Shown one piece after another: positions 8,143 through 22,042 of a DNA stretch of 30,548 nucleotides. The DNA comes from a virus: positions 1 to 30,548 of IMG/VR virus record IMGVR_UViG_3300003981_000006; one strand, written 5' to 3'. The notes beneath the pieces were generated by a model, which was not told where the DNA came from, ran no database searches, and was given only the letters and a program-made list of their open reading frames with translations. A program made the position numbers and the translations under genes. Positions within the stretch are counted from its first letter, which is position 1, and each line of letters starts with the position of its first letter.

Positions 8143-9180
8143 CTAAGCTAGCATAAATCCTCTGACATTTGAATATAACCTTTCTTCATCTACAAAATCA
8201 ACATTTGGTGGGAATTGAGTACCATATAGAAGATTTGCACCGCCTCCTGCAAAAATTACTTTTTCTGAAGTACTAAGCAATTTTCTTTCTCTGACAAGAA
8301 TACTGTTTTTTAGTTTTTTAAGAAAGTTATTTTTTAATTCAAAAATAATAGATTTTACCTTTTCTTGATCGACTCCATTATAAATAAATTTATTTTTTAG
8401 AAAAATTTGAAGAGCTTCGTTATCAGAAAAAGACATACCGTATTCATTTTCAAGAAAATCAGAAAATGATTTAATAATTGAGGATACTCCATGACCCGGA
8501 AAACTTCGAGAATTATTTTTTTGTGGAATACCTTCATTAAAATATAAAACATTAATTGTGTTATATCCAATATCTAAAATCATTGCACTATCTGGATGTT
8601 GAATTTTTTTAGATTGAATATAATCAATATACGCTCCAGCACCTTGAGGAATAATTTTTATATTATTAAATTTAAAAGTTCTTCCATCGATAACAAATTC
8701 TGAAATTCTTGCAATATATTCGTCTTTATTTTTCCAATCCGCAAGAGACAAACCAATCCGAAGTTCAATATGATCTTGTTCTTCTTTATTAAAATTAATA
8801 GCTTTTAATTTAAATAAAATACTAAAAAGAATAATTGGATCATATTTATATTTAAATTTATAATCTAATGTACTAAATGATTCTCCAGCATTTGCACCAA
8901 CAAGAAGATCCTCATTTTCGAATAAGAATGACGTATTTGTACCATAACTTAATCCAGTATCAATATTAAAATTAATGGCAGTTGGTTCAGTCATAAATTG
9001 CCCCAGAAATCCTATTTTACTTGAACTATATCCAAGATCAATTCCAATAGGAGTAATTGAATTAATATCAAGACATATATTATAATCATTATATTTTTCA
9101 TAATTAATTGTTTTTGCCGGCTGACCAGGACTTGTTTGTTTATTTAAATGAACTTCCTGTCCTTGAGGTTTATTTTCCAT
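8143..9180 (-). CDS. parM-like: Actin-like ATPase, ParM/StbA type
   Basis: This 345-residue protein has the motifs of the actin/Hsp70 fold in order: phosphate-1 loop GIDLGYSSSK (residues 46-55), connect region with IGLSLADW and IIPQGAGAYIDY (about 143-187), phosphate-2 loop MILDIGYNTINVLYF (200-214), and adenosine motif VIFAGGGANLLYG (308-320). Length and motif spacing fit ParM/StbA-type plasmid and phage actins rather than MreB. Members polymerise with ATP and move or hold DNA, usually with a small DNA-binding adaptor and a repeat centromere. No such adaptor is recognisable here; the flanking genes are candidates by position. The first 35 residues are an extra, polar N-terminal extension. 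Ribosome binding site: AAAAAGGATATAAA. Confidence 0.85.
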   Translation of the reverse strand: MENKPQGQEVHLNKQTSPGQPAKTINYEKYNDYNICLDINSITPIGIDLGYSSSKIGFLGQFMTEPTAINFNIDTGLSYGTNTSFLFENEDLLVGANAGESFSTLDYKFKYKYDPIILFSILFKLKAINFNKEEQDHIELRIGLSLADWKNKDEYIARISEFVIDGRTFKFNNIKIIPQGAGAYIDYIQSKKIQHPDSAMILDIGYNTINVLYFNEGIPQKNNSRSFPGHGVSSIIKSFSDFLENEYGMSFSDNEALQIFLKNKFIYNGVDQEKVKSIIFELKNNFLKKLKNSILVRERKLLSTSEKVIFAGGGANLLYGTQFPPNVDFVDEERLYSNVRGFMLA

Positions 9181-9856: not shown

Positions 9857-10037
9857 ATAAAAAATCCTTTAGTTTTAATATTTTTTGTTTTAATAATTTA
9901 AATTTATTTGTTAAAATATTCGGCAATCTTTTATCTGATTGTACAACATAATCTGTTGGAAGAACATCAAATTTTTTAACAATCGCAGCTAATTGTTCAT
10001 TATTATATTCATTATTATATTCATTATTTAAATTCAT
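9837..10037 (-). CDS. Small unknown protein with NNEY repeats
   Basis: This 66-residue protein opens with the tandem NNEYNNEYNNE, encoded by a 12-base direct repeat, then has a short basic helical part (KRLPNILTNKFKLLKQKILKL). Its ATG overlaps the stop codon of the helicase gene (TAATG), and the ribosome binding site AAAGGA is formed by the last helicase codons (K-G-F), so translation is probably coupled. It also overlaps the next gene by 20 bases. The tight packing supports a real gene; the function is unknown. Confidence 0.6.
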   Translation of the reverse strand: MNLNNEYNNEYNNEQLAAIVKKFDVLPTDYVVQSDKRLPNILTNKFKLLKQKILKLKDFLYDNRNN

Positions 10038-11833
10038 TAAAATCCTTTATAAATTATTTTAGAGTTTTCAAATTCTGAAAGTATATTTTTTCTTAAAATC
10101 ATACTAGCGTTTGGTTGATAATGTAAAAAAGTACTTGTAAAGAAAAATTGAACTAGTGGAAATTTTTTCCCTTCATGTGTTCTAACAATACGACCAATAC
10201 TTTGGAGAAGAGTTACTTTTCCAATAATAGGACTACCAAATACTATATGACTTAAGTTTGATTTATCAAAACCAGCACTCAACAAACCATAATTCGAAAC
10301 AAGCAAATTACTTCCTTTGATTTTTCTATTATATATTTCAATAGCATTTTGCAAATTCTGTTCTTGAATTATTTTAAATTCTTCTCTTTTTATTTTATAT
10401 AATTCGTTTGCATCTTTTCGTTTGATTTCTTTGTTCTTTACTTTTAAATTTAATTCTTCTTTATACTGTTTTAGTTGTTCTCTTAATTTTTTATTTTCTT
10501 GTTTTGCAAGACTTTGAGAATCTATTTTTGAATTTCCAATTAACTTAAGAGGTTTTGCTTCTTCCTGAATATATTCATTTTCGAATAATTTATTATAATA
10601 TTCTATAAATTTATCAATCATTTTTATAGTGCTAAATAACACTACTGATACATGACCTTGAGATTGTTGATATTTTACCCATCTTGCTAAATAATCAAAA
10701 TAAAAGTTTTTATTATACAAAAACATATTATAAAATGTAAGAAATTTAATATAGTCATTTTTTGCAGCCCAACCTAAGGTTTGCTTTTCTTTAGATGTGA
10801 ATACCATATCATTATCTTCAGAATATAAACTAAAAATTTCAACATCCGGATGATAATTTTTATGGTCTGATTTATAAATTACTTCTCCAGTGCTATTAGT
10901 AAGCAAAAATTCATTAATTCCTCTTCTATAAGGAGTAGCTGTTAATCCGATAATATTATTAGTTTTAAAAATAGAAGAAACTTTTCCATAACCTTTCGCA
11001 CCTGATCCATGACACTCATCAAAGATAAATAAATCAATACTTTCATATAACTGATATAATTCATTATAAGGAATTCTTTTTAACTGAGATAAAATAGATT
11101 GAACCTTAGCTATAATAACTTTAGAATTATTGATTCCTTTTGTGAGGTCTTCTATATTTGATCCCTCTAAACAATATATGTCTTCTTCTTTTAAATCAGT
11201 AAATTGCAAAAAAGCATCTTTCCATTGATTAACCAAAATATCTTTTGGAACTATTATAATAGGTTTTTGAAATAATAAATCATATATGGCATGTATTGCG
11301 AGAACAGTTTTACCAAAACCTGGTGTTGCCTGAATAATACCTCTAAATAATTTATCTTTTGAATATCTAAGTTCTTTTAGTTTTTCAAATGCTTGTATTT
11401 GTTCATCTCTTGGAACTATTTTTGATTCATAAAGAGCATAATTACTATTTATCGTTGTTTCGTCATAATCCGCAGGTTCTTTTTTAAATTGAGCCATTTT
11501 TGGTTCAAGATTAAGATAAGCATTTAACGGTTTTAATTTTTCAAAATTTTGATACCAGAAAAATTTAGGAACCAGTACCCATGATGGTGTAAATGTTTCA
11601 AATTCAGATATTTTATCCATATCTAGATATTTTAAATTTTCATCATAAGAATTTACAAGGTCATGAACTTCTTTTGAATGAAAGTCCTTTATTCCTCGTG
11701 AAATATCAGCTCTTGATAATATTTCAAGCCAAGTTGAATATGGAATAAAATTTTGATATTCCGTATTAATATTTTGGTTTTCTGTAAAATTTGATATAAT
11801 TGGTACGTTTTGTGTATTTAATACTTGACTCAT
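10037..11833 (-). CDS. SF2 DNA/RNA helicase, UvsW/DEAH-like
   Basis: This 598-residue protein carries superfamily 2 helicase motifs: Walker A ATPGFGKT (169-176), motif II DECH (272-275), motif III TATPYR (298-303) and motif VI QSIGRIVR (544-551). The order and the DECH box resemble phage UvsW and XPB-like helicases, which remodel branched DNA during recombination-dependent replication. A charged coiled-coil insertion (about 438-506) interrupts the second RecA domain. I placed the start at 11833 (MSQVLNTQ), where AAAAAGGAATGTTTT precedes the ATG. The frame stays open to 11935, but that extra stretch contains a promoter-like motif and has no ribosome binding site. It is the first gene of a leftward run towards ParM. 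Confidence 0.85.
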   Translation of the reverse strand: MSQVLNTQNVPIISNFTENQNINTEYQNFIPYSTWLEILSRADISRGIKDFHSKEVHDLVNSYDENLKYLDMDKISEFETFTPSWVLVPKFFWYQNFEKLKPLNAYLNLEPKMAQFKKEPADYDETTINSNYALYESKIVPRDEQIQAFEKLKELRYSKDKLFRGIIQATPGFGKTVLAIHAIYDLLFQKPIIIVPKDILVNQWKDAFLQFTDLKEEDIYCLEGSNIEDLTKGINNSKVIIAKVQSILSQLKRIPYNELYQLYESIDLFIFDECHGSGAKGYGKVSSIFKTNNIIGLTATPYRRGINEFLLTNSTGEVIYKSDHKNYHPDVEIFSLYSEDNDMVFTSKEKQTLGWAAKNDYIKFLTFYNMFLYNKNFYFDYLARWVKYQQSQGHVSVVLFSTIKMIDKFIEYYNKLFENEYIQEEAKPLKLIGNSKIDSQSLAKQENKKLREQLKQYKEELNLKVKNKEIKRKDANELYKIKREEFKIIQEQNLQNAIEIYNRKIKGSNLLVSNYGLLSAGFDKSNLSHIVFGSPIIGKVTLLQSIGRIVRTHEGKKFPLVQFFFTSTFLHYQPNASMILRKNILSEFENSKIIYKGF

Positions 11834-11855
11834 AAAACATTCCTTTTTAAAGTTG

Positions 11856-11880
11856 TTTAATATATCTATATTGTTAACAT
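11856..11880 (-). promoter_or_regulatory. Promoter-like TATAGATATATTA motif before the helicase
   Basis: Leftward it reads GTTAACAATATAGATATATT, ending about 25 bases before the helicase start. It shares AACAATATAGATATATTAA with the site before the Sm-like gene at 7301-7320. This supports the shorter helicase start. Confidence 0.55.
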
Positions 11881-11972
11881 TTAAACATTGGGTTCTTGTT
11901 TGTTTAATAAACAAACAACTATTTTTTTTAAACATTAGAGCACTTGAAGAGTTTTATAAGTTTTCTGGAATA

Positions 11973-11999
11973 TCAAACGCCCTAAAATAGGGCGTTTGA
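11973..11999. repeat. Perfect hairpin, copy 1 (11-bp stem)
   Basis: TCAAACGCCCT and AGGGCGTTTGA flank the loop AAAAT. A nearly identical, slightly imperfect copy lies at 12246-12271. No clear T-run follows on either strand, so it may be a terminator of unusual type, a processing site or a protein-binding site. Confidence 0.6.
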
Positions 12000-12072
12000 G
12001 GTCATGCTTTCAGTTTACCTTTAAACTTGTTAGAACCCTCCTAAAACTTCCATTGTTCATTGATCAGAATGG

Positions 12073-12170
12073 AAACAGTATAGATATCTATATTGTTATA
12101 AAATAAACAAACTTTTTCATTGTTTGTAAAACAAACAGTATAGATATCTATATTGTTATAAAATAAACAA
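12073..12170. repeat. Tandem 38-bp repeat containing TATAGATATCTATA (two copies, 60-bp period)
   Basis: Copies are at 12073-12110 and 12133-12170 and appear identical. Each contains the palindrome TATAGATATCTATA, so the promoter-like core TATAGATAT is present on both strands. The end of copy 2 (12155-12170) pairs perfectly with 12178-12193 around a 7-base loop. Confidence 0.7.
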
Positions 12171-12193
12171 GAATGCGTTGTTTATTTTATAAC
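12155..12193. repeat. Hairpin, perfect 16-bp stem
   Basis: GTTATAAAATAAACAA (12155-12170) pairs with TTGTTTATTTTATAAC (12178-12193), loop GAATGCG. It is AT-rich and lies between promoter-like motifs. Confidence 0.65.
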
Positions 12194-12387
12194 ATAATAG
12201 ATATATTTATCTATACTTCAGATTTCTTTCAGTTTTCATATCCTCTCAAACGCCCTAAAATAGGGCTGTTTAAAATTTTTACTTTAAAATAACTATTCAT
12301 TGTTCATTGATCGGAATGGAAACAATGAAAAATCTCTAGGGAAGAGGAACCATATATCTATACAATATGAAAAATTGCTCCAAAATT

Positions 12388-12427
12388 TACTTTAAAATAA
12401 CTATCAGTTTGTATAGATATATTATAA
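12388..12427 (+). promoter_or_regulatory. Rightward promoter candidate
   Basis: TACTTTAAAATAACT, nine bases, then TATAGATATATTATAA. The same two blocks with the same nine-base spacing occur at 22003-22042 before the repeat-gene cassette. TATTATAA resembles a sigma-70 -10 element. It would drive the large structured RNA region and perhaps the genes beyond it. Confidence 0.65.
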
Positions 12428-12429
12428 GC

Positions 12430-13160
12430 GAATAAAGAATAAGTATTGTTTATTCAATTGTTATTTACAATTGAATTAATAAATAGTTATTATAATTATT
12501 TAATTGTATTCCTAATAATGGAAGAGATTAATATAATTTAAACTTTATTTATTTGGGGATCGTAGATCCTCAGTTATGGAGTAAAAGGTAGTTTACTACC
12601 TTTGAAAGTAACGAGAATATATTCGATATATAGTATATTGACCTGTTAATTCCAGTGATGAGCTTCTTCGGAAGTTTCTGAAGGGTTAACACAGGCAATA
12701 ATATTATTGAGAGTATATTTAAATGTGAGAAATCAATATATCATTATAATTCGTTGTAAAATAAGTAATGATATACTACACTAAATCAACGAGATCATTT
12801 CTTCAATTAGTGACAAATTCACTTGAATAAGTGTATTTTCATATGTAAATGTTTCAGATGATTTTATGTTAGTTTGTGCGAGATACTTTTAGAGTATCCT
12901 TGAACCGCGTACATTTAAGCTGATATATATGATTCAAAAGACAGTTACAATGAATAATTCATTTTGGATATGGATTTGAAACTATTTGTTGATTTGATTA
13001 AAATTTCATACTAAAGAATATTAATTAAAAGCAATTTATAATAGTTGCTCTTAATTAAGATTCTTATTTAGAATCATGTTGTCTTGATGAACAATAGACA
13101 TAAAAGATAAGAGTTCCTACCTCGATTTACCCTTCCGACGGGAAGGGTATTGGTTTCTAA
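12430..13160 (+). ncRNA. Candidate large structured non-coding RNA
   Basis: There is no usable reading frame for about 700 bases, yet stems are dense: 12557-12569 (GGATC/GATCC), 12584-12603 (8 bp), an arm 12642-12695 that closes on CCTGTTAA with TTAACACAGG and contains a UUCG tetraloop (12663-12674), 12737-12775 (10 bp), 12882-12898, 13021-13058 (one mismatch in 14), 13059-13075 and 13128-13149 (9 bp, GC-rich, terminator-like). The promoter candidate lies directly upstream. Size, structure density and phage context resemble ornate phage RNAs such as GOLLD or ROOL, but I cannot assign a class from sequence alone. Exact ends are estimated. Confidence 0.55.
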
Positions 13161-13166
13161 AATTTA

Positions 13167-13251
13167 AAACCTTTCAAGAAGTATTCAAAGAATATAGTAA
13201 TCTAGACGATGTTACTCTCAGATGAAATATCGAATACTTCTTGAAAGGTTT
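13167..13251 (+). ncRNA. Structured RNA motif, copy 1, before the lipoprotein gene
   Basis: A perfect 20-base-pair outer stem (13167-13186 with 13232-13251) encloses a conserved inner element AGTAATCTAGACGATGTTACT, whose ends AGTAA/TTACT can pair, followed by CTCAGATGAAA. The inner element recurs at 14158-14188 with few changes, inside a different outer stem. Confidence 0.6.
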
Positions 13252-13265
13252 AGTGGATAGTTAAT

Positions 13266-13294
13266 AAAAGCAGAGCAACTGCTAGAATTAAAGC
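13266..13294 (+). promoter_or_regulatory. Shared 5' leader element, copy 1
   Basis: AAAAGCAGAGCAACTGC and GCTAGAATTAAAGC form the start of a leader also found at 13666 and 14246. GCAG-AGCAA-CTGC can form a small hairpin. In this copy the similarity stops before the ribosome binding site. Confidence 0.65.
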
Positions 13295-13320
13295 AAAAAT
13301 TAAATTAAAAAGGATTAACA

Positions 13321-13581
13321 ATGAAAAAGTTAATTATATTTACACTAGTTATTATTGCTATAACAGCAAGTGGGTGTGCGTCTAAAGATGCATTAACAAA
13401 AGGAGGTTTCGGACCTCGAAAAATGATCCATTCTGTTAACATGGGAAATGCAGTGAAAGTCTGTATCGATCATGTTATGTATCTAAGCCTCTATAACGGG
13501 ATGGCTCCTGCCTTAAATAAGGAGCTAAAACCACAACATTGTGATGTGGATGAATACGGAAGAGTTATTCCAATGCCTTAG
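13321..13581 (+). CDS. Small lipoprotein
   Basis: This 86-residue protein has a type II signal peptide: MKKL, a hydrophobic core (LIIFTLVIIAITA) and the lipobox ASGC, with Cys19 as the predicted lipidated residue. The mature part is about 68 residues, with two further cysteines and basic and proline residues. Such lipoproteins near holin and lysozyme genes are often outer-membrane spanins (Rz1-like), but this one lacks the proline-rich composition typical of Rz1, and no partner i-spanin is evident. Superinfection exclusion is an alternative. The start follows AAAAAGGATTAAC. The stop codon sits in the loop of a 15-bp hairpin. Confidence 0.75.
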   Translation: MKKLIIFTLVIIAITASGCASKDALTKGGFGPRKMIHSVNMGNAVKVCIDHVMYLSLYNGMAPALNKELKPQHCDVDEYGRVIPMP

Positions 13582-13595
13582 CATTGGAATAACTC
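13562..13595 (+). terminator. Perfect 15-bp hairpin over the lipoprotein stop codon
   Basis: GAGTTATTCCAATGC pairs with GCATTGGAATAACTC around CTTA, which contains part of the stop codon. No T-run follows, so it may protect or process the mRNA end rather than terminate. Confidence 0.55.
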
Positions 13596-13608
13596 ATAAT
13601 TAATATAT

Positions 13609-13655
13609 AAAATATTCATTAATAGTATTAATGAAATACTATTAATGAATATTTT
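13609..13655 (+). terminator. Perfect 20-bp AT-rich hairpin
   Basis: Positions 13609-13628 pair fully with 13636-13655, loop TAATGAA. It ends in TTTTAG, just upstream of leader copy 2. It could be a terminator or an RNase III-type processing site. Confidence 0.55.
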
Positions 13656-13665
13656 AGTTTATGTT

Positions 13666-13728
13666 AAAAAAGCAGAGCAACTGCTAGAATTAAAGCTACG
13701 CCTAAAAAAACTCGAGAAGGAGTAAATT
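13666..13728 (+). promoter_or_regulatory. Shared 5' leader element, copy 2
   Basis: About 63 bases identical to those at 14246-14308, including the GCAG-AGCAA-CTGC hairpin and the ribosome binding site GAAGGAG before TAAATT-ATG. The element delivers the same translation start to two unrelated genes. Confidence 0.7.
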
Positions 13729-14067
13729 ATGGAAACAAGAATAAGTAAAACAATAAACACAAAAATCGGTTCAATGTTATTATTAGCAAGCATATTGGGT
13801 GTTTGGATAGCAACATACGGAGTTGTCCAATACGGCATGTGGAGTAATTTTTCCATAGGAAGTTTGGGAGTAATTGGAGCATTAGTTATACTTCAAGTGA
13901 GCATACTCACAGTTGTTATGTCGTATTCATCTTCATCATTATTAGTATGGAATAAAAAAACAATAGTTATATACTTTGCATCTATATTAATAATGCCTTT
14001 ATGTGTTGGTGTAATCGCATATCACACTTGGTATACATTTACAAAAACCAAAAGAGTTAAATCATAA
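13729..14067 (+). CDS. Three-segment membrane protein, holin candidate
   Basis: This 112-residue protein has three hydrophobic segments (about 14-36, 44-66, 77-100), a short N-terminus and a basic C-terminal tail (KTKRVKS). Size and topology fit class I holins, which open the inner membrane to release lysozyme; a lysozyme is encoded 0.7 kb downstream. Holins share little sequence, so this rests on topology and position. The start uses the strong ribosome binding site GAAGGAG of the shared leader. An unrelated membrane protein is the main alternative. Confidence 0.6.
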   Translation: METRISKTINTKIGSMLLLASILGVWIATYGVVQYGMWSNFSIGSLGVIGALVILQVSILTVVMSYSSSSLLVWNKKTIVIYFASILIMPLCVGVIAYHTWYTFTKTKRVKS

Positions 14068-14080
14068 TATTCCGTCGAGC

Positions 14081-14103
14081 TGGACGTAAAACGAAGCGTC
14101 CAG
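14081..14103 (+). repeat. Short hairpin after the holin-like gene
   Basis: CTGGACG pairs with CGTCCAG around a ten-base loop, directly before the 28-bp palindrome that starts at 14102. Confidence 0.5.
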
Positions 14104-14129
14104 ATGAAGTCTCCGCGGAGACTTCATCT
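14102..14129 (+). terminator. 28-bp perfect palindrome, possible terminator
   Basis: AGATGAAGTCTCCG and CGGAGACTTCATCT form a 12-bp stem with a CGCG loop, followed by TTAAGAATC. GC content is higher than its surroundings. It separates the holin-like gene from the next leader. Confidence 0.6.
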
Positions 14130-14130
14130 T

Positions 14131-14213
14131 AAGAATCTTTACTAAGAGCACAAAGCGAGTAATCTAGATGATGTTACTCTCAGATAAAAAATATGCTATT
14201 ATTAAAGATTCTT
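14131..14213 (+). ncRNA. Structured RNA motif, copy 2
   Basis: The outer stem AAGAATCTTTA (14131-14141) pairs with TAAAGATTCTT (14203-14213). The inner element AGTAATCTAGATGATGTTACT and the following CTCAGAT match copy 1 at 13196. The outer stem differs in sequence from copy 1 but still pairs, which points to a conserved RNA shape. The 3' strand can alternatively pair downstream (14206-14222). Confidence 0.6.
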
Positions 14214-14245
14214 TTAGAATCTGAATGTGTCTCAAAAAAGATTAA

Positions 14246-14308
14246 AAAAAAGCAGAGCAACTGCTAGAATTAAAGCTACGCCTAAAAAAACTCGAGAAGG
14301 AGTAAATT
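14246..14308 (+). promoter_or_regulatory. Shared 5' leader element, copy 3
   Basis: Identical to copy 2 through the ribosome binding site and start codon of the next gene. The offset between copies is 580 bases. Confidence 0.7.
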
Positions 14309-14536
14309 ATGGAACTTAACACAAATATAAAAAACTACAAAAGAGCAATTGCCGAAGTCGCAGAACTTAACGATGCAGTTGCATCACTAAGCAATATCAG
14401 TGCTAAAAGAGCAATTAAAAGAGAGCTTATTAACGAGCTCTTTGCTGCTAAAAAATCTCTTTATGAAGAGATAAAACGATTAGATAACCAGCTTGAAAAA
14501 GCTGGTTATGTTAAAAAAAATCAAAGAAAGTCGTAA
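14309..14536 (+). CDS. Small coiled-coil protein
   Basis: This 75-residue protein is almost entirely helical with heptad-like spacing of L, A and I (AEVAELNDAVASLSNIS, then KKSLYEEIKRLDNQLEKAG) and a basic tail. It has no signal peptide or membrane segment. The start uses the same leader and ribosome binding site as the holin-like gene. The hairpin-like end GCTTGAAAAAGC and a pairing of AAGTCGTAAGACTT near the stop are short. Function unknown; a cytoplasmic regulator or structural chaperone is possible. Confidence 0.65.
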   Translation: MELNTNIKNYKRAIAEVAELNDAVASLSNISAKRAIKRELINELFAAKKSLYEEIKRLDNQLEKAGYVKKNQRKS

Positions 14537-14752: not shown

Positions 14753-15241
14753 ATGAAAAAAATTATTTATATTATTTTATTTTTTGCGTTAACAATTAAT
14801 TTAAATGCAAATAATTTAATAGAAAGCACTGTCAATCAAGTAAAATTACATGAAGGGTTTAGAGCTAAACCTTATAAAGACACATGCGGTTTATCAATAG
14901 GGTATGGTACTACACTAATTTTAACTAAAAATGAAGCTGAAGTACTACTTAGAATGAGGTTACTTAAACTATATGCTGAATTAAATAAATACTATTGGTT
15001 CACACAGTCCAATAATGCTCGTAAACAAGTATTACTAGACATGGCTTATAATTTAGGGTTAAATGGACTGAAATCATTTAAAAAAATGATATGGTCGTTA
15101 AATCATAAATACTATCATGGAGCCGCAAACGCAATGAAAGATAGTTTATGGTATAGACAAGTTGGGAATAGAGGCAAGCTATTATATAAGATGATGTATT
15201 ATGGAAAAAGGAAAAAATATTTGAAAACCCATGATATGTAG
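14753..15241 (+). CDS. Exported T4-type lysozyme (GH24 endolysin)
   Basis: This 162-residue protein cleaves peptidoglycan. Residues 1-19 (MKKIIYIILFFALTINLNA) are a signal peptide or signal-anchor. Then comes the GH24 core: LHEGFRAKPYKDTCGLSIGYGT, with the catalytic Glu34 and Asp43 in the E-x8-D spacing of the family. The third catalytic position, normally Thr before IGYG, is Ser48 and one residue closer to Asp43. The C-terminal lobe retains the helical DMAYNLGLNGLKSFKKM motif (family form: FNLG...GS-L). Because it carries its own export signal, the holin would serve timing or depolarisation. The ribosome binding site is weak (GAGATGCAATA), so translation may depend on the preceding gene, nine bases upstream. 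Confidence 0.88.
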   Translation: MKKIIYIILFFALTINLNANNLIESTVNQVKLHEGFRAKPYKDTCGLSIGYGTTLILTKNEAEVLLRMRLLKLYAELNKYYWFTQSNNARKQVLLDMAYNLGLNGLKSFKKMIWSLNHKYYHGAANAMKDSLWYRQVGNRGKLLYKMMYYGKRKKYLKTHDM

Positions 15242-15311
15242 TTTACAAACAATGTAAATTATTGTACTTAAATGTATAATAAATTAATAAAAAATAATAA
15301 AAGGAAAGAAA

Positions 15312-15539
15312 TTGAGAGAAATTTATTTAGTACTTGATGAGTACGAAGATAACGACGGATATTTCACTTATAGTGCTGCTTTTGAAAAAGAAGAAGAAGC
15401 AAACAAGTTTAAAGACTTAATAATTGAACATAATAGAAAACGAGGCTATGAAACGAATCATGATGTTTTTCCAGTCATAATACATGACGATAAAACTCCA
15501 GAAGAGGTTCTTGAACACATAACAGGAGGTTCTAAGTGA
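15312..15539 (+). CDS. Small acidic unknown protein
   Basis: This 75-residue protein starts with TTG behind AAGGAAAGAAA. It is rich in E, D, K and Y (REIYLVLDEYEDNDGYFTYSAAFEKEEEA) and looks like a small alpha/beta fold with no membrane segment. The pattern of a strand, an acidic turn and a KEEEANKFKDLI helix is common in small phage host-takeover or accessory proteins, but I recognise no family. Its stop codon overlaps the start of the next small gene. Confidence 0.6.
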   Translation: MREIYLVLDEYEDNDGYFTYSAAFEKEEEANKFKDLIIEHNRKRGYETNHDVFPVIIHDDKTPEEVLEHITGGSK

Positions 15540-15673
15540 TTTGGTTGAAAAAGTGGAAAAATAGAAGAAGAGTAAAAAGGATGATAAAAGAATTAAATAA
15601 AGCTGGTTTTAGTATAACTCAGATTTTAAATCTTTTAAAATACGGACAAACACCAAATACAAAAGTGTTGTGA
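15536..15673 (+). CDS. Tiny basic protein, GTG start
   Basis: This is a 45-residue frame. The GTG start overlaps the stop codon of the previous gene (GTGA) and has an excellent ribosome binding site AGGAGG six bases upstream. The N-terminus is strongly basic and tryptophan-rich (IWLKKWKNRRRVKRM); the second half (ELNKAGFSITQILNLLKYG) could be a small helix-turn-helix. It may bind nucleic acid; the function is otherwise unknown. Confidence 0.6.
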   Translation: MIWLKKWKNRRRVKRMIKELNKAGFSITQILNLLKYGQTPNTKVL

Positions 15674-15707
15674 TGCTTTTGCATTGTACTTTTAATAAGG
15701 AATTGTT

Positions 15708-16052
15708 ATGAATGATTTTAGTCCTGAAATTCTTGAAAAAATGGACATAATATTATACCAGATTTTGAATAAAATAATAGATATAAAAAAAAATCAAAAA
15801 AACTTATACAGTGTTTTAAAAGTATATTTAAACAGAATGTCTGTTTCTAAATGTGAATATATATACGCATCACAGAATTACTGTTTTGAAATACCATGTA
15901 GTACTTATATAAAACTACTTGAAGAAATAGGTTTTGTTATAACGTATGAAGGACGCACTGGTTATACTTTGGAATGGAGTTTAAAAAATTTCCAGCAAAA
16001 ATTAAAAAAGTATACATCAGAAAAACAAAAAAAGATTATCCATTTTGAGTAA
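15708..16052 (+). CDS. Unknown protein, 114 residues
   Basis: The protein is mainly helical at the start (DIILYQILNKIIDIKKNQKNLYSVLKVYL), with a middle section containing two cysteines and a tyrosine-rich turn (YIYASQNYCFEIP), then a GYTLEWSLKNFQQKL helix. It is soluble, with a basic C-terminus. The middle resembles a small winged-helix with a short hairpin (EEIGFVITYEGRTGYTLEWS), so DNA binding is possible but not shown. Ribosome binding site AATAAGGAATTGTT. Confidence 0.6.
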   Translation: MNDFSPEILEKMDIILYQILNKIIDIKKNQKNLYSVLKVYLNRMSVSKCEYIYASQNYCFEIPCSTYIKLLEEIGFVITYEGRTGYTLEWSLKNFQQKLKKYTSEKQKKIIHFE

Positions 16053-20534: not shown

Positions 20535-20771
20535 TTATAATTTTTTTATGCCGCTTTTTAACATAAGCTGTTCAAAAGCATTATCATCGATCGGTGTATT
20601 GTTGATTTTGTTAATTTCTTTTTCATTATTTTTTTCAAAACCTAAAAATTGAATATATGAATAAATATTAAAAATTTCATTTGTTTTTTTAGGACTTGTT
20701 ATTTTTATATCATTATCTTCATATATGATGTTTGTTTTTGTTTCTGAAACAATGAAATTTGTTTTGAAACT
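20535..20771 (-). other. 78-residue tail of beta' N fragment: candidate N-intein
   Basis: It starts directly after Asp393 with serine, an allowed first intein residue, exactly where the C-intein plus S-DGDQ fragment would be joined. However, it has no recognisable intein block B (no T-x-x-H), and its match to block A is poor. It is either a strongly diverged N-intein or a replacement tail. Confidence 0.35.
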
Positions 20772-21950
20772 GTCACCACCAATAGGTGAATACATAAAAC
20801 TAGGAACAACCATTTGATACTGTGCTCCAGTTAAAATAACTGGTTTAAAAGCCCACCAAGATAAATGAGTCCATCCTGGATCACGCTTAGCAATTATGCG
20901 AAGTTCTGGATTTTCAGTAAAAATATTATTAAGTACTTCTATCCAAAGTTTTTCATGTGTTGGATTATTATTTAAATATTCTTCAACATTTCTAAATATA
21001 TAATCTAATTTTTTACCAAGAGCATCGAGATCAATATTAAAAACACCGAGTTGTTTTGCCTGATTTTCATTTGATGGTTTATTAATATAAGCTGCTACAA
21101 AAACATCAAAAGTTACCAATAACCCTTGCCAAGGAACAGCGGCGCAATCTATAGGTAAATCAGGATGTGCATTAATAACATATCTGGCAACATTATCAAC
21201 TCGTTTTCCAAATAAGGCACTTCTAAAAAACCCACTTTTTGCTGATAATTTATCAAGAAAATAGTCATAAAGTTCAAGAATATATCTTTGGATATATTCT
21301 TTTTTTGATGTATTTTTATACATAGATTTAACAATGTCATTCATTGGATTATCAGAATCACTCACCCAATCTTTGCTCTCTTCAATATTAACAATTTTTT
21401 TATAAATACTTGTTAAATCATCTTCTTCTAATTTACCATGAGATTCTGTATAATTTCTATAACCTATTGGTAAAACAGGTATTTTTTTTATTATTAGTAA
21501 ATCTTTATCTTTTAATAAAATATTTATAAAATCTGAATTTGTTTCAGTTCTATAATTTTCAAAGTTAATTTTATTAAAATTATTAATAATAAATTGTATT
21601 CCAGTTCCAGAAGCACCAGTACCTTTTTCATCTTCAACAAGCATTGAATTTTTTATAGTACAATTTATTTTTTTAGAAATACATTTTTTAAAAATTCCAT
21701 TGATCTTACCAATATTTTTAAATATGAATGGATGTAAAACTGGTTCAACTAGTTGTATGTATGCAAATTGATTAAAAATTTCTTTTGAGCTGAATCCAAA
21801 AATAGAAGGATCATAAAAACTTCCTGAATTTGGTACTAGAGAACCATCTTTATTTACGAATGTTTTTGCTGTTGAAATAGGTCTTGTTGGTTTTTCTCCA
21901 GATTGTGGAGAATTCAAAAATTTTTCAACATTTAATAATTTAAATGACAT
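20535..21950 (-). CDS. RNA polymerase beta' subunit, N-terminal fragment, ending at the active-site motif
   Basis: This protein has 471 residues. Beta'-like landmarks are: YIQLVEPVLHPFIF (64-77; bacterial I-x-L-A-x-P-V-x-H), IPVLPIGYR (157-165; VLPVPPxxLRP), FRSALFGKRVDNVARYVI (242-259; LLGKRVDFSGRSVI), RIIAKRDPGWTHLSWWAFKP (351-370; LNRAPTLHRLGIQAFEP) and VVPSFMYSPIGGD (381-393), which aligns with the residues leading into NADFDGD. After Asp393 the match stops. The last 78 residues (SFKTNFIV...SGIKKL) are not beta'-like and lack the DGD motif, which is instead encoded at 29620-29793. The other two reading frames of this tail contain no DGDQ and soon hit stops, so a simple frameshift does not explain it. 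Confidence 0.88.
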   Translation of the reverse strand: MSFKLLNVEKFLNSPQSGEKPTRPISTAKTFVNKDGSLVPNSGSFYDPSIFGFSSKEIFNQFAYIQLVEPVLHPFIFKNIGKINGIFKKCISKKINCTIKNSMLVEDEKGTGASGTGIQFIINNFNKINFENYRTETNSDFINILLKDKDLLIIKKIPVLPIGYRNYTESHGKLEEDDLTSIYKKIVNIEESKDWVSDSDNPMNDIVKSMYKNTSKKEYIQRYILELYDYFLDKLSAKSGFFRSALFGKRVDNVARYVINAHPDLPIDCAAVPWQGLLVTFDVFVAAYINKPSNENQAKQLGVFNIDLDALGKKLDYIFRNVEEYLNNNPTHEKLWIEVLNNIFTENPELRIIAKRDPGWTHLSWWAFKPVILTGAQYQMVVPSFMYSPIGGDSFKTNFIVSETKTNIIYEDNDIKITSPKKTNEIFNIYSYIQFLGFEKNNEKEINKINNTPIDDNAFEQLMLKSGIKKL

Positions 21951-22002: not shown

Positions 22003-22042
22003 TACTTTAAAATAACTTAGTTATTATATAGATATATTATAA
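22003..22042 (+). promoter_or_regulatory. Rightward promoter of the repeat-gene cassette
   Basis: TACTTTAAAATAACT, nine bases, TATAGATATATTATAA: the same two blocks and spacing as at 12388-12427. It lies 74 bases before the first cassette gene, in the divergent gap with the beta' N gene. Confidence 0.7.

Follow-up and report, generated by a model that had tools for sequence, protein, structure and literature searches.

Positions 12430-13160 of a giant (jumbo) phage fragment lie between two divergent gene blocks and fold strongly. The question raised by this locus was whether the stretch encodes a large ornate RNA of the GOLLD or ROOL kind, as proposed in the initial annotation, or belongs to a different transcript or element. 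The whole stretch of DNA analysed, 30,548 nt long, is referred to as the window.

Locus and early-type promoter

The folded stretch and other features of the locus are as follows:

10037-11935, leftward: helicase gene, on the left side of the folded stretch
11973-12268, no strand assigned: palindromic and direct repeats (GCCCTAAAATAGGGC twice, GTATAGATATCTATATTGTT twice), upstream of the promoter
12389-12427, plus strand: early-type promoter of 39 bp, consensus ACTTTADAATAA-N13-TAGATATHTTATAA, likely RNA start at ~12430
12430-13160: folded stretch
13321-13581, plus strand: first operon gene, small lipoprotein-like protein of 86 aa (PHROG 7772, function unknown)
20535-21950: RNAP-like subunit, whose family model also matches cellular RNAP

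The ~700 gene-free bases between divergent blocks described in the initial annotation were confirmed, as no ORF of at least 50 aa was found within 12430-13160 and the longest reading frame, in any frame, was ~42 aa on the opposite strand. The helicase has homologues in the related contigs G001, G002, and G003 at 68-72% identity, with the alignment to relatives running from residue 60 onward only. Homologues of the lipoprotein gene are located downstream of a conserved element, termed type A (see below), in G001, G002, and G004. Within the operon, a leader repeat, GCAGAGCAACTGCTAGAATTAAAGC, was observed shortly upstream of three successive genes (window 13263-13294, 13665-13696, and 14245-14276), and two of its copies are near-identical over ~67 nt, a length that takes in the ribosome-binding site and ATG. 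On the minus strand, positions 8143-9180 of the window encode an actin/ParM-like protein (Pfam MreB-like_C and ALP_N) with ~81% DNA identity in G001 and G002. A reading of this 'partition' gene as tubulin was rejected on the Pfam assignment, and a nucleus-forming phage is not claimed because the gene is actin/ParM-like.

The promoter-like site immediately before the folded stretch, also pointed out initially, proved to be a conserved motif. Scanning IMG/VR for the spaced consensus returned 30 stretches from related contigs; the window together with fifteen related contigs contains 36 exactly spaced copies, ahead of genes or leaders. The block ACTTTAAAATAACT...TATAGATATATTATAA of 12389-12427 recurs at window positions 22004-22042, with 0 occurrences expected from shuffles. 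With six to seven per 130-167 kb, the promoter sites are rare, as expected for a special class. Over the 36 sites the AT-rich promoter resembles, compared by eye, the early promoter motif of phage AR9, which is AT-rich and reads AAATATATATTAT-(6N)-G (PMC5312081). In phiKZ-related phages, which carry multisubunit RNA polymerase genes with one set in the virion, the virion polymerase makes early transcripts from extended, conserved AT-rich promoters, starting about 6 nt downstream. We infer that a virion RNA polymerase reads the promoters found here early in infection, starting at ~12430 in the window. The median leader length behind the promoter was 126 nt, and the longest leaders were those of the window (893 nt), G003 (710 nt), and G002 (579 nt). 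Behind other early promoters, tiny ORFs preceded by a strong ribosome-binding site were observed (promoter positions G001:47630, G002:42904, G007:4501, G009:9396, and G006:20137); the encoded peptides (MGTDITPGC, MGCDVSPGNC, MGAVDITGNC, MGAIDMT, and MGCDITPGNC) may be conserved micro-peptides or leader peptides.

Folding and strand bias of the stretch

The plus strand of 12430-13160 folded at -192 kcal/mol versus -138.5 +/- 6.4 kcal/mol in composition-preserving dinucleotide shuffles (20 per strand), giving z = -8.4, and the minus strand gave z = -7.4. Segment z values on the plus and minus strands were -5.2/-3.3 for 12428-12745, -4.1/-1.7 for 12746-13010, and -4.3/-5.5 for 13011-13110. The initial claim that the stem density exceeds AT-rich noise is supported by the z value and the plus-strand bias, but a low z by itself is unspecific in this AT-rich phage group, in which other gaps score as low on both strands (G001 gap c, -9.0/-8.2; G002 gap c, -6.9/-7.5).

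The plus-strand bias is better evidence than z for distinguishing 12428-12760 from other folded gaps. From ~12420 to ~12760 the plus strand is far more stable than the minus strand, and 160-nt windows starting at 12420-12600 contained 5-9 G-U pairs on the plus strand versus 0-1 on the minus strand. Of 100 shuffles, 98 had a higher plus-minus energy difference than 12428-12745, and 96 a higher one than 12746-13010. This excess is only modest (z about -2), since the plus strand contains more G than C (0.167 vs 0.088 in 12428-12745), a composition that by itself favours plus. The upstream palindromic control, taken whole, gave z = -2.0 for the plus-minus difference, although its absolute difference is small (-4 vs -29 kcal/mol).

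Upstream of 12389, folding is similar on the two strands, G-U pairs are few, and there is no plus-strand lean; the palindromes there reach z about -9, similarly low on both strands. The repeats at 11973-12268 are accordingly a DNA-level structure outside the RNA. A DNA-level reading of the folded stretch itself, as a replication origin, a bidirectional insulator, or a recombination hot spot whose palindromes only mimic RNA stems, would fit the divergent gene blocks, these strong palindromes and repeats, and the similar gaps in G003 and G009. However, the unbiased palindromes sit upstream of the promoter, the folding downstream of it is plus-strand-biased with many G-U pairs, and the conserved promoter is directed into the stretch; we consider this reading very unlikely. 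Palindromic gaps rich in repeats, with hairpins of the GCCCTAAAAATAGGGC type, were observed at window 11973-12268, G003:2786-3635 and 14767-15763, and G009:12079-12658; in G003 and G009 these hairpins are tandemly arranged. The gaps are perhaps insulators or replication sites. Another gap, G011:73362-74194, resembles a tRNA cluster, with several tRNA-like sequences recognizable by eye.

The structured features downstream of the promoter, all on the plus strand, were as follows:

12428-13112: 5' part of the leader, structured and lineage-specific, ~685 nt, AT-rich, without ORF (folding z and strand bias)
12438-12538: AT-rich 5' hairpins (local fold of 12428-12545, z = -3.8)
12554-12572: hairpin GGGGATC/GATCCTC (minimum free energy fold, MFE)
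12584-12603: hairpin AAGGTAGT/ACTACCTT, enclosed by a 5-bp helix, 12573-12612
12615-12720: main arm of 42 pairs with CCTG/CAGG, TTAA/TTAA, and a c(UUCG)g loop (z = -4.1, equalled in 0 of 200 shuffles)
13014-13065: long AT hairpin, 21-nt arms 90% complementary (z = -4.8)
13128-13149: GC-rich 9-bp hairpin with GACG loop, terminator-like (terminator-like scan)
13160-13261: type A element, copy 1, with a 20-bp helix (13167-13186/13232-13251) and core AGTAATCTAGACGATGTTACTCTCAGATGAAA (13196-13227); cmsearch 88.6 bits
14102-14220: type A element, copy 2, with a GC-rich hairpin (14102-14129), helix (14131-14150/14194-14213), and core (14158-14189)

The eight or more strong stems of the initial annotation were all recovered in the MFE, at 12554-12572, 12584-12603, 12615-12720, 12737-12775, 12882-12898, 13014-13065, and 13128-13149, together with two AT hairpins before 12540. 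The arm with the cUUCGg tetraloop is among them, formed by CCTGTTAA (12642-12649) and TTAACACAGG (12686-12695) with the loop C12666(UUCG)G12671 (local fold 12609-12727, z = -4.1). The local fold of 12554-12612 gave z = -4.0, and a fold as good was obtained in 0 of 200 shuffles. BLAST detected no homologue of 12428-13112 in 920 kb of related contigs, in which a covariance model built on the single main-arm sequence also matched only itself; an exact 24-mer of the main arm was absent from viral contigs, and no DNA similarity to the stretch was found in 50,697 phage records. The 5' part, so far known from one phage alone, appears to be a long representative, restricted to its lineage, of the known kind of structured phage leaders.

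The promoter slot in relatives and the type A element

Downstream of an early-type promoter, G001, G002, and G004 have a variable leader, then a GC-rich hairpin and type A, and after these a small gene ahead of the lipoprotein gene. The variable part consists of little beyond a short hairpin in G004 and of 172 nt plus a 155-aa membrane-protein gene in G001, and it is non-coding in G002, with a truncated remnant of the G001 membrane-protein gene. As the contents of the syntenic slot differ in every relative, the ~680 nt of the window occupy a fast-changing slot, and the quite different leaders at the same promoter position indicate that the large 5' part does not belong to a conserved family. 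The gene in G001 and its remnant in G002 also raise the idea that the window stretch is a decayed early-gene relic, folding from AT-richness and hairpin insertions only. Against this, blastx of the stretch detected no similarity to 1585 ORFs of relatives (best E = 3.2), and its z of -8.4 was obtained against shuffles that preserve composition; a relic is highly improbable.

A second non-coding, strand-biased leader, ~700 nt long, is located behind the same promoter type in G003. Homology between this leader and that of the window was not supported: BLAST detected no similarity, and only the promoter, length, and strand bias agree. Shorter structured leaders were observed elsewhere. Type C, a long helix around CTTTTATTAAATTTATAG/CTATGGATTTGRTAAGGG, lies behind the early promoter at L082:10443-10600 (plus), G001:82940-83106 (minus), G002:79364 (minus), and G012:42666 (plus); homology of the window hairpins to type C leaders (G001, G002, G010, and G012) was rejected because type C is one long helix. 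Type B, a ~220-nt structured RNA directly behind the early promoter, was observed at G001:39782-40070, L070:14258-14500, L080:905-1126, and L085:14960-15217, all on the minus strand. It contains a conserved CGGRTTACCGG...GGYGCGGGAYCATTTT, and its covariation is strong, with changes on both sides in 17 of 39 predicted pairs (RNAalifold on a MAFFT alignment of four contigs). Type B generated no Rfam match for L070, L080, and L085 and no meaningful similarity in 50,697 phage records, and is possibly the better ncRNA family of types A and B.

The GC-rich hairpin at 13128-13149, predicted initially as the end of the folded feature, was present and has counterparts in G001, G002, and G004 and upstream of the second type A copy in the window. 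Across relatives its stem letters vary while pairing is kept, and the loop is mostly kept. Hairpin and type A together make up a conserved module at 13128-13261. The hairpin of the window may not terminate transcription because the T-run following it is weak (TTGGTTTCTA); the tails in G002 and G005 are T5-T7. The folded feature does not end at 13160, as had been assumed, and continues to ~13261 through type A.

Type A is composed of a 20-21-bp helix, an inner 5-bp helix, and a nearly invariant core, ATCNNGANGNTGTNACNCTCNGATNAA. In an alignment of seven copies (two from the window and one each from G001, G002, G003, G004, and G005), changes on both sides occurred in 18 of 30 pairs and 96% of cells were paired, and 0 of 500 shuffles reached these values. 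When the partner was moved by one column as a control, pairing fell to about half. As the copies from G001, G002, G004, and G005 are mutually close, the independent comparisons are the two window copies, G003, and that group; pairwise both-side changes numbered 5 to 11 per 20 pairs. A cmsearch over 920 kb returned the seven copies with E values of 8e-21 to 4e-10, which are not independent scores because the same sequences built the model. In G008 the helix is kept and the core is lost. A 3-bp pseudoknot between the core loop and the following AGA pairs in seven of seven copies with a single compensatory change, and is only a suggestion. Nothing corresponding to type A was found in Rfam, nor was any meaningful DNA similarity found among 50,697 phage records. 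The covariation indicates that type A is a real, previously undescribed structured RNA element with evolutionary support, and within the leader only this 3' end appears to be conserved and covarying.

Leader model and comparison with known systems

The stretch very probably gives rise to a long, folded RNA with which an early gene group begins. The probable reading that we favour is that an early phage transcript starts with a long 5' leader, non-coding and folded, spanning 12428 to ~13320 (~890 nt), in which type A acts in cis. A leader is preferred because the promoter is conserved, exactly spaced, directly upstream, and pointing in; because strand-biased folding starts at the promoter and is weak upstream; because the promoter slot of relatives gives a variable leader, GC hairpin, type A, and lipoprotein gene; and because type A covaries and the phiKZ p40 and AR9 UTRs give precedents.

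With respect to the polymerase, termination, and processing, we infer the following course. The phage-type early promoter would start RNA near 12430, and ~680 nt of hairpins would be transcribed, followed by the terminator-like GC-rich hairpin. Part of the transcription probably ends at 13128-13149, which would free the leader RNA (cf. phiKZ p40, PMC8545117), and read-through would proceed into type A and then the lipoprotein operon. Type A would most likely act as a binding or processing site, either RNase III-like or for a phage RNA-binding protein, determining where the downstream mRNA starts and how stable it is, and may do so again ahead of a later operon gene, where it recurs (14102-14220). 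An RNase III-type cut in the two-turn helix is our preferred guess.

Alternatively, a free-standing large structured RNA could be made from the early promoter, end at the GC hairpin, and, like GOLLD and ROOL, act in trans, for example as an RNA scaffold or on ribosomes. The ~700 gene-free nt with a strong fold, many arms, their own promoter, and a terminator-like end would suit such an RNA, as would the comparable G003 leader. GOLLD and ROOL are often located near tRNA islands, but ARAGORN found no tRNAs in the 30.5-kb window, which is a fragment. The Infernal search of Rfam proposed in the initial annotation returned no match to GOLLD, ROOL, or HEARO at the gathering threshold in the window or L041, and none at E up to 10 in 11900-14400, where only sub-threshold chance matches to microRNA, snoRNA, and small-RNA models appeared. 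Moreover, neither a sequence nor a structure homologue of the stretch was found in 920 kb, its syntenic slot differs in each relative, and the window and G003 leaders share no detectable sequence similarity. An early transcript that is non-coding, folds strongly, and shows strand bias thus has good support, whereas the large ornate RNA first proposed, as a free-standing RNA of the GOLLD/ROOL type, is unlikely. More tentatively, and still doubtful, the phage group may set unrelated structured RNAs behind early promoters (~680 nt in the window, ~700 nt in G003, ~220 nt in type B, and type A), of which at least the large ones would be trans-acting early regulators of host or phage expression.

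Little is charted of the structured RNAs that giant phages make in the first minutes of infection. For uncultured giant phages, a conserved promoter marking the start points of such RNAs and a covarying element from phages of several samples are concrete targets in the search for processing signals and early-acting RNA regulators.

GOLLD and ROOL are large ornate RNAs of phage origin with 650-800+ nt and many stems (PMC12286853). The window leader shares their phage origin, size range, and many stems, but lacks a covariance-model match, tRNA neighbours, or a conserved family, and heads an early operon. Early mRNA of T7 contains RNase III processing hairpins. Type A similarly places a long helix, about two turns in length, between early genes and recurs within one operon, but has a nearly invariant apical core of ~30 nt, which to our knowledge has no counterpart in the T7 sites. 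In AR9, UTRs of 26-491 nt carry predicted motifs (PMC5312081). The window resembles AR9 in an AT-rich, putatively early promoter whose last block is TATTAT-like and in a long predicted 5' UTR, but the window leader extends 893 nt to the first ORF. The 5'-UTR of phiKZ p40 is a structured ncRNA of ~180 nt with two stems, the second of which was proposed to stop transcription before the gene (PMC8545117). The window leader would likewise be a structured, non-coding transcript start in a giant phage, but has ~680 nt, many stems, and a conserved downstream element.
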